From Pokkaliibacter plantistimulans (GTDB lineage: Bacteria; Pseudomonadota; Gammaproteobacteria; Pseudomonadales; Balneatricaceae), in NCBI RefSeq assembly GCF_003194385.1, contig NZ_LAPT01000055.1, positions 1 through 64,000 on the forward strand: 64,000 nt of DNA. The letters run 5' to 3'. Below, piece by piece: positions 4,058-39,051 of this stretch (its first letter is position 1; the number at the start of each line of letters is the position of its first letter). The notes under the pieces were generated by a model. That model saw only the letters and a program-made list of their open reading frames with translations, made no database searches and was not told the origin of the DNA. The position numbers and the translations under genes were made by a program.

Positions 4058-4278
4058 TAACAGGTCGTTGAAAATCTATCTGCGTTGCCGAATACCGCGT
4101 CAAAAACAGGCTCACAGCCAAAGGCTGAACGTGCTTTAGCACGGCCCCGAAGGGGCGAGCGGAGCGAGTCAAATGCTCATTTAGTCCACTAAACTCCGCT
4201 TTTTCGCCTGTTTCTTGTGCCCTCGGGGTATTTCCTTGTCTCGGCTGCCTCGATAACGTTTTTCAACAGCCTGTTAAA
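4058..4278. repeat. Fold-back repeat family 1, copy 2
   Basis: Best-preserved copy. It starts TAACAGGTCGTTGAAAA and ends TTTTTCAACAGCCTGTTA, and the two ends are imperfect inverted repeats. It keeps the three-hairpin module (about 4114-4156) and has an extra ~16 nt near 4217 that copies 1 and 3 lack. It sits 7 bp beyond the stop codon of the IolI-type gene and inside what would otherwise be a continuous iol operon. Confidence 0.85.
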
Positions 4279-30804: not shown

Positions 30805-30950
30805 TAACAGGTCGTTGAAAATCTATCTGCGTTGCCGAATACCGCGTCAAAAACAGGCTCAAAATGCTCATTTAGTTCACTAAACTCCGCTTTTTCGCCT
30901 GTTCTTTCCTTGTCTCGGCTGCCTCGATAACGTTTTTCAACAGCCTGCTA
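30805..30950. repeat. Fold-back repeat family 1, copy 3 (short form)
   Basis: It has the same ends as copies 1 and 2 (TAACAGGTCGTTGAAAA and TTTTTCAACAGCCTGCTA) but lacks the ~57-bp three-hairpin module. It fills the gap between the polyene operon and the converging START-domain gene. Its last bases provide that gene's stop codon (CTA at 30948-30950, TAG on the minus strand). Confidence 0.85.
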
Positions 30951-31646
30951 AGGCTCGGTGATAAATGGCAGATGAGCGTGCTGGTAGCGTGGCAGTTTTA
31001 TCTGCTGACGCAGGTGGATGAAGGTTTCGAGCACTACCTGCAAGCCATGCTGGCGTACCAACCAGCCGGGGATCATGCCATCGGGGTCGATGCTACCCTG
31101 ATAACGGATCTGTACTTTCCCATTTGCCAGTGGGGTCAAGGTCCAACGTGCTTGTAGATAGCGTATCTGTATCCCTGTTTCACTGGCCTGTGGATCGTAA
31201 CGGTTATGTATACTCAGCGTCAGCACCTGATGGCTGTCCTGGCTGAGTATGGAGCGGGTGACGGCCCAGCGCTCATGCACCAGCAGCGTTCCTTTAAAGC
31301 GGGTTTTGACTACATCTTCCTGATCTGAGTCGTGTTGCAGCAGGGTGACGGACTTTACCTGACTGATCCAGTCGCTGGCATGCTCGGTATCTTGCAGCAT
31401 TGCTACGAAAGCGGCCAGGCTGGTGGTGAGCTCGGTTTCAGCGCGAACGTTAAAACGATGCTGGTTGTCCTGACGATACTGCACCGTCACGTTGTTTGTT
31501 GTACGCCACAATGTCCATGGTTCGGCACGTGCTGTTGATATTCCACAAAGTAGAATCAGTGCGAGCCACGATGAAACCTGCCGTAGTTGCTGCAGGTGTG
31601 CTGGAGTTTTTAGCTTTCCATTTGGCTGGCATACCTGCCTATCCAT
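30948..31646 (-). CDS. Secreted START/polyketide-cyclase-like lipid-binding protein
   Basis: Encodes 232 aa from the ATG at 31646, which has a GGAAGAAG ribosome site; the longer frame upstream has none. A hydrophobic segment ending ISTARA is a signal peptide, so the domain is periplasmic. The SRPBCC/START-like fold shows in FVAMLQDTEHASDWISQVKS, RWAVTRSILSQDSHQ and GMIPGWLVRQHGLQVVLETF. Such domains bind hydrophobic ligands. Its place facing the polyene operon might be meaningful but could be chance. The stop codon lies within the fold-back repeat. Confidence 0.75.
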   Translation of the reverse strand: MDRQVCQPNGKLKTPAHLQQLRQVSSWLALILLCGISTARAEPWTLWRTTNNVTVQYRQDNQHRFNVRAETELTTSLAAFVAMLQDTEHASDWISQVKSVTLLQHDSDQEDVVKTRFKGTLLVHERWAVTRSILSQDSHQVLTLSIHNRYDPQASETGIQIRYLQARWTLTPLANGKVQIRYQGSIDPDGMIPGWLVRQHGLQVVLETFIHLRQQIKLPRYQHAHLPFITEP

Positions 31647-35905: not shown

Positions 35906-36670
35906 TTACATCACCAGCAGCAGGAGGGCGCCGAACAGGATGCGGTAGATACCAAAGGCCACGAACGTGAAGTGCGCCAGAAAGCGGATAAACAGCTTCA
36001 TCACGATATAGGCGCTGATAAAGGCCACGATAAAACCGACAAGCAGCGGCATAAAGGACTCACCGGCAAACTCATGGTAGTGCTTGAGCAGATCGTAACC
36101 GCTGGCCGCCAGCATCACCGGCAAGGCCAGCAGGAAAGAAAACTCGGCACTGGCCTTGCGACTGAGGCCCACCAGCATGGCTCCGATAATGGTTGAGCCG
36201 GCACGGCTGGTGCCGGGGATCAGCGCAAACACCTGCGCAATGCCTATCCACAGGGCCTGTTTGTAGCTGAGGTTTTCCACATCGGTCACCGTGGCACGTT
36301 CCTCCTTGTAGAAGCGTTCAACGATAAGAAAAACGATACCACCGACGATAAACATGATGGCAACGATTTCGGGTGAGAACAGGGCCTTGATCTGCTTGCT
36401 GAACAGGAAGCCCACGGCACCTACCGGAATGAACGCCAGTATGACCTTCTTCCATAGCTCAACGTGTCTGAAGGTGAACTTGTCCGCGTAGTTGGCGGTC
36501 ACGGCCAGAATGGCCGCCAGCTGGATAATCACCTCAAAGGCTTTGTTTTCGGCATTCTGATCCATGCCCAGCCATTGGCTGGCAATAATCAGGTGGCCGG
36601 TGGAAGAAATAGGCAGAAATTCAGTGATGCCTTCAACAAGGCCAAGCACCAGGGCTTGCAATATATCCAT
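35906..36670 (-). CDS. uppP: Undecaprenyl-diphosphate phosphatase
   Basis: Encodes 254 aa. The BacA/UppP signature is clear: [20 protein letters not shown] with the catalytic Glu-rich motif, and [16 protein letters not shown], the phosphate-binding PGxSRSG-like motif. About eight membrane segments are seen. The enzyme recycles undecaprenyl diphosphate for cell-wall synthesis and gives bacitracin resistance when abundant. Confidence 0.93.
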
Positions 36671-36926
36671 ATCGACGATCCGTAGCAGAGTCGCGGAGGG
36701 AATTGAGAAGGCGGCTATCTTGGCATAACAAAATGTTTCCGCAAACCAGAGGGTGGGAAGGGATCAAGGAATATCGACTACCCTTAGAACTTGCCCCATT
36801 CTGACGTGCGCTGCATATAACAGCGTCAAGTGCGCCTTTACGGTTCTGCAGTCAGTGGCTGTGTGACGTCGTTCGCCACTGTTGAACAGCCAGTTATTGT
36901 TGGCCTCCGGGCCACAGGAGCGTCTT

Positions 36927-37048
36927 CACAATCTGCTGCGCGTCGGCTACCGGGCGTTGAAGAGACCGTCGGAATGCACCTTTACCCACCGTAAACGCCG
37001 CTTCCTCAGCTCTTTCTGCCTTGACTGGCTTTGGCTCGCGAGATCGTG
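36927..37048. repeat. Fold-back repeat family 2, copy A
   Basis: This 122-bp element starts CACAATCTGCTGCGC and ends GCGAGATCGTG, near-complementary ends. It matches the 121-bp element at 60359 most strongly in the right half (ACGCCGCTTCCTCAGCTC, then TGCCTTGACTGGC). It lies directly upstream of the degenerate response-regulator gene and forms most of its leader. The remaining stretch, 36671-36926, shows no gene. Confidence 0.7.
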
Positions 37049-37078
37049 AACACGGTCCGGGAGCGGCAGGAACCTGAT

Positions 37079-37750
37079 ATGAAACTACTGATTGGTGAAA
37101 ACCACAGCTGCTTTGACATGTACACCCTGCAGGGGCTGATGGCCGCGGGGATGTGTATCGTCCGCGCCAGCTCAGGGGTGGAGCTGATGCAGAAACTGCA
37201 GCGTGATCGCTTTGATGTGGTGGTACTGGAGTCGGGGGACCTGGGGGGGATGACCAGCCGCGATATCTTTCTCGGCGTCCGCAGTGCTGGTCTGCAGGTG
37301 CCGGTGCTGTTCCTCTACAACGAAGCCCAGCGACCGCCCCTGCCTGCGCCTGTACCGGGTACTGACCAGCTCTGTTGTCCCATTTCCCTGAGTGTATTGC
37401 TGAGCCACCTGCAGACGCTTGAAAAGGGTCTGCCGACACCGGCGACTGATCAGCATTTCCGTCTGGCTGATCTGGATGTGGATCTGGATCGTCACTGTGC
37501 CAGCCGTGCAGGCTGCCCGCTCAGTCTGACCGAGCAGGAGTTTCGTCTGCTGGCGTTGCTGATCAGGCATCAGGGCCGCCCGGTGTCGCTGGCGGCCATC
37601 GGGCTGGCATTGCAGGACACCAGCCCGGATAGTGCACCTGAACGGCTGGAGCTGGCCATCCGTCAGTTGCGGGAAAAGGTGGATGAAGCGCACAAGGTGC
37701 ACCTCATCCATAGCACGCCGGACAGGGGATATGTTCTCGAAGTCTCATAG
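37079..37750 (+). CDS. OmpR-family response regulator with a degenerate receiver
   Basis: Encodes 223 aa from the ATG at 37079, which has a GGCAGGA ribosome site. Residues 1-115 align with a receiver domain, but its active site is lost: the acidic pair is Asn8-His9, the phospho-acceptor position is Glu51 (VVVLESGDLGG), the Thr/Ser position is Tyr80 and the Lys position is Cys100. Residues about 125-223 are an intact winged helix (LSLTEQEFRLLALLIRHQG and IRQLREKV...DRGYVLEV). It probably binds DNA without phosphorylation. No sensor kinase gene is adjacent. Confidence 0.82.
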   Translation: MKLLIGENHSCFDMYTLQGLMAAGMCIVRASSGVELMQKLQRDRFDVVVLESGDLGGMTSRDIFLGVRSAGLQVPVLFLYNEAQRPPLPAPVPGTDQLCCPISLSVLLSHLQTLEKGLPTPATDQHFRLADLDVDLDRHCASRAGCPLSLTEQEFRLLALLIRHQGRPVSLAAIGLALQDTSPDSAPERLELAIRQLREKVDEAHKVHLIHSTPDRGYVLEVS

Positions 37751-37788: not shown

Positions 37789-39051
37789 TTATGGCTGTAC
37801 AGGAGGCTGCTGCGCAGCAGGCTGCCCGGGAATACGGGTGATTTCGCCTGCCTTCAGCGTTTGCCGATGGGTCAGTAACGGGAACAGTTTCATCCACAGT
37901 GCGACAACGGCCAGGGTGCCGAGCCCGCCTACCACAATGGCGGGCACCACGCCGAGCCAGGCGGCAGTCACACCGGATTCAAATTCCCCCAGCTGGTTGG
38001 AGGTGCCGATAAAAATGGAGTTGGCGGCACTGACGCGGCCGCGCATTTCGTCTGGCGTTTCCAGCTGTACCAGCGTAGAGCGGATGACCACGCTGATCAT
38101 GTCCGACGCCCCCAGCACCCAGAGTGCCAGCAGTGACAGCAACAGGTGGGTAGACAGACCAAAAGCAATGGTGGCCAGCCCGAACATCGCCACCGCGGCG
38201 AACATGATCTTGCCTACATTGCGTCGCAGCGGGCGGCGGGCCAGATACACGGACATCATCACTGCTCCCAGCGCGGGTGCACAGCGTAGCAGACCGAGCC
38301 CCCACGGGCCGGTGTGCAGAATATCTTTGGCAACGATGGGCAGCAGGGCCGTGGCACCGCCAAGCAGGACGGCAAACATATCCAGAGAGATGGAGCCGAG
38401 GATCATCGGATTACGGCGAATAAAGACCATCCCGCCCAGCAGTGATTCCATGCTGACCGGCGCTTTGGCGGGCGCCTTGTACTCATACTGCAGGTTGAGC
38501 AGAAAGATCGCTGAAATCAGGAAGCACACCACACTGCTGCCATACAGGGCGGTCGGGCCAATCAGGTAGATCAGGCCGCCCAGGGCCGGGCCTGCAATTA
38601 CAGTGGCTTCGCGGGCAGAAGCCATAAGAGCCACCGCACGTGACAGCAGATCAGGCGTTATCAGGTTGGGCAGCAGTGCCTGCGTGGCGGGCATCTCAAA
38701 GGCACGGGTCGCTCCCAGTGCGGCGGCACAGGCATAGATCATGGTGGCGCTGATGGAGTGGGTGAGATTGCCCAGCACCAGCACCGATACCGTGATGGCC
38801 ATCACCAGCCGACAGATCAGCACGATGATGCGGCGGTTGTACTGATCAACCATATGGCCAGCCACCAGTGTCAGCGCCAGTTGTGGCAGAAACTGGGCCA
38901 GACCGACCAGACCCAGATTGAGGGCGCTGTTGGTGAGGTCGTACATCTGCCAGCCGATGCCCACGGCGAGCATCTGGAAGGCAAAGGAGGATGCGATCTG
39001 GCCAATCCAGAAGCGCATGAAAGCTTGGTGTTTCAGCAGGGACGTTTCCAC
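37789..39051 (-). CDS. MFS transporter (EntS/DHA3-like)
   Basis: Encodes 420 aa with about 12 membrane segments. FWIGQIASSFAFQMLAVGIGW and LAGHMVDQYNRRIIVL (a motif A variant) near the N-terminus place it with the EntS-like MFS_3 group, which exports siderophores, macrolides or other hydrophobic molecules. A Pro/Gln-rich C-terminal tail (QPAAQQPPVQP) is unusual. No siderophore genes are near, so the substrate is open. Confidence 0.85.
   Translation of the reverse strand: METSLLKHQAFMRFWIGQIASSFAFQMLAVGIGWQMYDLTNSALNLGLVGLAQFLPQLALTLVAGHMVDQYNRRIIVLICRLVMAITVSVLVLGNLTHSISATMIYACAAALGATRAFEMPATQALLPNLITPDLLSRAVALMASAREATVIAGPALGGLIYLIGPTALYGSSVVCFLISAIFLLNLQYEYKAPAKAPVSMESLLGGMVFIRRNPMILGSISLDMFAVLLGGATALLPIVAKDILHTGPWGLGLLRCAPALGAVMMSVYLARRPLRRNVGKIMFAAVAMFGLATIAFGLSTHLLLSLLALWVLGASDMISVVIRSTLVQLETPDEMRGRVSAANSIFIGTSNQLGEFESGVTAAWLGVVPAIVVGGLGTLAVVALWMKLFPLLTHRQTLKAGEITRIPGQPAAQQPPVQP

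Follow-up and report, generated by a model that had tools for sequence, protein, structure and literature searches.

The gene at positions 37079–37750 (forward strand) of the window, i.e., of the 64,000-nucleotide stretch of the Pokkaliibacter plantistimulans genome that was analyzed, raises the question of how a response regulator might operate when all active-site residues of its receiver have been replaced. The answer to which the analyses point, and to which we assign a probability of about 60%, is that it encodes an orphan pseudo-response regulator of CusR/CopR descent, which is uncoupled from kinases, in which Glu51 is no phosphate mimic, and in which DNA binding is altered and probably weaker. 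The frame runs from ATG to stop and encodes a protein of the OmpR/PhoB type with 223 amino acids. Its N-terminus MKLLI matches the start of the relatives in the alignment, and a likely ribosome-binding site, AGGA, was read directly at 37068–37071 (forward strand), 7 bases 5′ of the ATG. A winged-helix DNA-binding domain (residues 126–222; 37454–37744, forward strand) was recovered by the Pfam profile PF00486 with 48.3 bits (cut-off 26.2) and in the predicted fold. The pseudo-receiver domain (residues 1–117; 37079–37429, forward strand) was apparent from its predicted receiver fold, while the receiver profile PF00072 (Response_reg) found only a trace of it (13.4 bits, E 0.09, cut-off 30.2). The best whole-length families were CusR (PRK09836, 83.4 bits, cut-off 420) and the CusR/CzcR/SilR family TIGR01387 (82.3 bits, cut-off 279.2). 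It is therefore likely, judged from these profiles, that the protein descends from the CusR/CopR heavy-metal branch, although with 82.3 against 279.2 bits it falls outside TIGR01387 itself. Two long antisense frames cross the gene (36894–37439 and 37172–37711, both on the reverse strand); the family matches lie on the forward frame. Two Rfam matches at 37564–37736 scored far below their gathering scores, and an RNA element inside the gene was rejected.

The initial annotation had stated that all receiver active-site residues are replaced, and this was confirmed by comparison with 72 relatives. The acidic pair has become N8-H9 (37100–37105), the phospho-accepting Asp E51 (37229–37231), the conserved Thr/Ser Y80 (37316–37318), and the conserved Lys C100 (37376–37378; C99 lies immediately N-terminal), all on the forward strand. 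The Asp at position 51, the Lys at position 100, and a Thr or Ser at position 80 were each found in 72 of 72 relatives, and Glu51 in none of the 72. The Asp at position 8 was present in 71 (one gap), and an acidic residue at position 9 in 70 (one gap, one His). The 72 relatives are best-match loci from the searches, i.e., a subset of all matches, and some of the rows are nearly the same (L008 and L039 do not differ at all). Of the 73 loci that were tried, L003 was left out; the same gene, read as L122, has DD, D, T, and K. A further locus outside the 72, L135, has ED E, D, T, and K by eye. How Y80 is paired varies between alignments, as others put it into a gap and the Thr/Ser of the relatives opposite A83, but the Thr/Ser is absent from the window regulator under either alignment; in the structure model Y80 ends strand beta4.

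The genome contains 19 proteins with a Trans_reg_C domain, which, besides the window regulator, comprise two without a receiver and 16 with one. In all 16 of these OmpR-type regulators D8, D51, T/S, and K are present, and 14 of the 16 have an acidic residue at position 9. Two loci on one contig (G000:C189) carry Gln (L129) and Asn (L130) at the second acidic position, and both have kept D8, D51, T/S, and K. Among the proteins that were read, the full loss is thus peculiar to the window regulator. The residue set of a phosphorylatable receiver (DD, D, T/S, K) is missing from it, and, when the definition of pseudo-receivers in the available text of a review (PMC12632262) is applied, active-site positions are lost at five of five. 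According to the initial annotation, an Asp retained by orthologues would reduce the case to an isolated mutation; retention was found for paralogues and distant homologues only. The change in the receiver is, however, wholesale and comprises more than one mutation.

The changes extend beyond the active site. At K-3, Gln97 has replaced the switch aromatic, a Tyr. From the end of beta4 to Pro101 the protein has 22 residues compared to 24 in the relatives, and this part is rich in proline (PPLPAPVPG). The Pro-rich segment (residues 85–94; 37331–37360, forward strand) lies at the place of helix alpha4 in the alignment, and this helix is missing from the structure model, which has a turn at residues 82–84 followed by coil at 85–94. 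The loop between beta3 and alpha3 is one residue longer, and the conserved Pro and Gly after the Asp are replaced (P56G, G60S). R91, E106, R110, and R117, each found in 90% or more of the 23 relatives in alignment A1, have been exchanged to P, V, H, and G, at positions which we take to belong to the dimer face of the OmpR family. The usual alpha4-beta5-alpha5 dimer face thus appears to be lost, with alpha4 absent from the monomer model and the conserved residues gone. The overall fold seems to have been kept, because the modelled receiver superimposed within about 2 Å on many solved receivers (1mvo: Z 17.3, 2.0 Å over 117 residues), and the whole modelled protein was most similar to OmpR/PhoB regulators in the structure comparison; in these match lists the absence of a family was not counted as evidence. 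The mean pLDDT of the model was 85.2, with about 66 for residues 81–90, and the pTM of 0.54, obtained with an alignment of nine rows, makes the relative placement of the domains unsure.

The receiver has diverged further than the output domain, with identities to six compared relatives of 29–32% vs. 38–45%. The DNA-binding domain had been described as intact by the initial annotation. This holds for its fold and its recognition by PF00486, but not for its residues, as W179, N188, R196, R214, and G215 are lost, and among the 19 domains of this kind in the genome this one has the lowest PF00486 score. For PhoP of M. tuberculosis, DNA contacts are given in the available text of PMC4832192, and these were transferred by hand via the alignment. 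At seven of 16 contact positions the window regulator has the residue that is usual in the 23 A1 relatives, and at nine it differs. The latter include the phosphate-clasping Trp and Phe, the minor-groove Arg of the wing, and the adjacent Gly; among the nine, T212S is conservative and position 199 is variable in the relatives. The net charge of residues 124–223 is −4, compared to about 0 for the C-terminal 105 residues of the relatives. With nine of 16 contacts changed and this net charge, DNA binding may even be lost.

Regulators of the TIGR01387 type usually, although not strictly, have the gene of their partner histidine kinase adjacent. The claim that this gene has no kinase partner was borne out, since the 91-kb contig C168 yielded no HisKA or HATPase_c match, compared to 43 HisKA and 62 HATPase_c matches in the genome. 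The neighbors are uppP (BacA; 35906–36670, reverse strand), which is divergent from the regulator gene, and the gene for an MFS transporter (37789–39051, reverse strand), which is convergent with it. None of the 10 neighboring proteins that were scanned belongs by name to a metal-resistance or oxidative-stress family. The nearest paralogue is CopR-like (36% identity), its gene overlaps a kinase gene with a HisKA match, and it is divergent from a gene whose product is, by eye, a putative multicopper oxidase. This putative oxidase (L105:6875-8896) contains a long tandem Met/His-rich stretch (MDHSKMDHSQM...). Relatives of uppP (E ≤1e-40, 66–69%) were found in just two other genomes among the 114 family genomes searched, a patchiness that hints at gain or patchy loss. 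No OmpR-type regulator was present in the 1.5-kb flanks of uppP in these two genomes. Upstream of uppP an NtrC-type regulator was seen by eye in L134 (a receiver with the Asp in LDLTMP, followed by an ATPase domain), and, likewise by eye, an AraC-type regulator at this place in L133.

The leader of the gene had been described as mostly a repeat. The repeat copy (about 36917–37061, forward strand) extends over only about 145 bases of the 408-base intergenic region, but it does occupy the greater part of the 160 bases that precede the ATG. It belongs to a dispersed, roughly 140-bp repeat that occurs at no fewer than 38 places in the genome (40 of 70 candidates were scored). The ends of the repeat are mutual inverted repeats (like AGAACGTGTTCACGATCT), copies longer than 60 bp are 69–83% alike, and from its sequence the repeat resembles a non-autonomous element of the MITE type. 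Its copy L083 (G000:C182:9516-9658) is found near the kinase gene that adjoins the CopR-like paralogue, about 13 bp beyond the stop codon of this kinase gene. A second repeat family is present at 59–217, 4058–4216, and 30805–30953, with the pieces TAACAGGTCGTTGAAAA and TTTTTCAAC; in L062 and L076 some of its parts directly adjoin first-family copies, indicating common insertion neighborhoods. A scan for sigma-70 promoters upstream of the regulator gene found none (0.5 expected), and a terminator scan also found none. With a repeat copy so close to the gene, a nearby promoter would be located within or upstream of the repeat.

No orthologue was found in 37 relatives, 116 family genomes, or the samples of the order (390), class (369), and phylum (398), which overlap and were searched with an E cut-off of 1e-28 or 1e-29, the first 7 or 8 candidates per genome being scored; the search of the own genus covered one genome, that of the regulator itself. 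The collection genome_contigs yielded one locus with 31% identity and viral_contigs none, and among 3476 plasmid records all matches were below 60%, with 36.1% for the best one listed. The top match by identity was L089 of the order sample (39%), and by E-value L098 of the class sample (36%, 3.6e-32); both are canonical at the active site. In the tree the window regulator sits on a branch with a length of about 8 changes per column, placement within the CusR branch fails, and the bootstrap is not settled. Duplication of the own CopR and gain from elsewhere are equally open.

Since no orthologue was found, drift nulls were used in place of a direct dN/dS analysis. To this end, the 23 A1 regulators were drifted neutrally until 55 of 111 conserved columns had changed, as in the window regulator, with stops allowed and with two base compositions. 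The frame stayed open in 10/920 and 28/920 of these runs (frameshifts were left out of the count), and in 4/900 runs when the paralogue was drifted to 36% identity. The codon score of 0.23 falls within the span covered by 15 window genes (0.03–0.30; the same genes define the scale) and exceeds all 40 neutral runs from the paralogue with each of the two base compositions. The indels are small and in-frame, and the gene has no stop or frameshift. The open frame and the native codon usage argue against a pseudogene. Synonymous sites are near saturation vs. the paralogue, as 39 of 76 codons for shared residues are identical and 35.8 are expected from codon usage alone. This indicates that the split from the sampled relatives is old, while the onset of a decay could be later. 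Only for the conserved polar columns of the receiver did the loss exceed drift: 5 of 21 are kept, compared to about 10 in the drift runs (P 0.009 and 0.012; the most extreme among six groups, uncorrected), while in the DNA-binding domain the figure is 12 of 24, compared to about 11.4. We read this as a receiver freed from its role in phosphate signalling, with the gene itself apparently still, or until recently, in use. Of the conserved hydrophobic columns, 39 of 53 have stayed hydrophobic, vs. 39.5 and 40.3 in drift runs that forbade only stops. For the core, purifying selection had been considered on the basis of a Fisher test (39/53 vs. 17/45, P 0.0005), which compared class with identity; a like-for-like test of identity (hydrophobic 29/53 vs. 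polar 17/45) gave P 0.11, the drift null equals the class figure, and the argument was dropped.

These results bear on the main alternative, namely that selection has been relaxed and the gene is heading toward a pseudogene: after loss of the kinase both domains would drift, and the protein would have little or no function. The extent of change in the conserved columns, the drift-like behavior of the hydrophobic columns and of the DNA-binding domain as a whole, the empty promoter scan, the lack of an orthologue in the sampled genomes, and the length of the terminal branch all fit this scenario, and so does the composition, since 6 Cys, 8 His, and 14 Pro are near the drift means of 3.8–3.9, 6.0–6.2, and 10.7–12.8. 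The rarity of open frames in the neutral runs, the absence of stops and frameshifts, the native codon usage, the restriction to small in-frame indels, and the presence of a ribosome-binding site speak against it, and we consider decay unlikely, albeit with an appreciable chance of being correct. Much less probable is the proposal of the initial annotation that Glu51 mimics the phosphorylated Asp, so that the regulator would be constitutively active as a dimer. It can draw on the Glu at the Asp position, on Ile102 at K+2, which is of a residue class reported to bias CheY toward active forms (available text of PMC12632262), and on the PhoB double mutant D10A/D53E, which according to the title of its entry (2jb9, a structure match) is constitutively active. 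However, the part of the same review that deals with such mimics holds that a Glu perhaps acts via the conserved Thr and Lys (PMC12632262), and both partners are gone. In addition, Glu is the commonest replacement in receivers without the Asp (26%), so that Glu51 alone says little, and exchange of the Glu of ChxR to Asp or Ala is reported not to have abolished DNA binding (both from the available text of PMC4395418). Because Thr, Lys, the switch Tyr (now Gln97), and, by model and sequence, alpha4 and the dimer face with its charges are gone, the mimic was rejected as the likely mode of action.

The least probable reading, which we regard as a long shot, is that His9, Glu51, and Cys100, in the vicinity of Cys99 and Cys11, form a pocket that directly senses thiols or metals, somewhat like RitR. 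The three residues occupy positions that presumably line the canonical Mg-phosphate pocket of receivers, and the protein has 6 Cys, compared to a mean of 0.6 and a maximum of 5 in the 72 relatives. With RitR, a Cys switch is already known in a regulator without the Asp (PMC5965902, as far as available), but the linker of the window regulator (residues 118–125) is devoid of Cys, unlike that of RitR. In the HP1021-type Cys switch, the Cys belongs to the alpha1-beta2 loop and occupies DD+19; C26 of the window regulator is located 17 or 18 residues past the pair, where beta2 begins in the model. The neighboring proteins, none of them of a metal-resistance or oxidative-stress family by name, do not favor sensing either. 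Moreover, at least 6 Cys were found in 17–19% of drift runs in which only stops were forbidden; the Cys enrichment, which had been considered an indication of sensing, was thus reduced to a lead. If this reading were true, kinase, phosphate, and alpha4 would have been dropped together, and a two-component regulator would have turned into a one-component metal or redox regulator.

The reading as a kinase-uncoupled pseudo-response regulator of CusR/CopR descent can be compared with several known systems. CusR, CopR, and CzcR (TIGR01387, PRK09836) are the best family and have the same two-domain layout, and the identity to the best matches of the order and class samples is 34–39%. In contrast to them, the window regulator lacks the active site, a kinase gene on its contig, and the Arg and Gly of the wing, and its model is devoid of alpha4. 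ChxR, HP1043, RitR, and GlnR are, like the window regulator, orphans without a phospho-accepting Asp and with an OmpR/PhoB output domain (described in the available parts of PMC4395418 and PMC12632262), and in ChxR and HP1043, too, some of the secondary structure of the pocket region is missing (PMC4395418). The window regulator differs from these four in having lost all five positions together with the K-3 aromatic, in its other lineage, and in the loss of half of the DNA-contact set. In the accessible text on ALRs (PMC4395418), 70% have a basic residue at the Lys position and 44.5% have both Y/T residues, whereas the window regulator has neither. SsoR of Shewanella oneidensis is an orphan OmpR/PhoB regulator whose action is reported to be independent of phosphorylation and dependent on dose; unlike the window regulator, it has kept D8, D9, D52, S77, F96, and K99 (both in the available text of PMC11045786). 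The same text calls the cluster that holds HP1043 'CusRs' (PMC11045786). A literature search, with most subscription journals outside its scope, found no pseudo-receiver of the CusR type.

If the preferred reading is correct, the receiver would have lost the phosphorylation chemistry, the Y-T coupling, and the usual dimer face, and no kinase would switch the regulator. The two-domain fold would have been kept, and the protein is probably still made. Its activity might be set mainly by the amount that is made, or by a partner or ligand; by analogy, kinase-free action that is set by dose, as described for SsoR in the consulted part of PMC11045786, or alternatively by a partner or ligand, is likely. 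The changed and probably weaker DNA surface could direct the regulator to sites other than those of CopR, or its contacts might chiefly be with proteins.

Pseudo-receiver regulators are a known class, to which the window regulator adds a case that is notable for the completeness of the loss. In the available text of a 2025 review one count puts pseudo-receivers at about 6% of bacterial receivers, orphans account for 18 of the 20 bacterial cases described there, and the activation and inactivation of pseudo-receivers are termed a mystery (PMC12632262). With 13.4 bits for PF00072, a score below the cut-off, the window regulator would probably be missed by published pseudo-receiver sets. For now, with neither orthologues nor a known target, it is a weak case for comparison. 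Its dead receiver shares the genome with a live CopR-like paralogue and the kinase of the latter, and this would permit a comparison within one branch.
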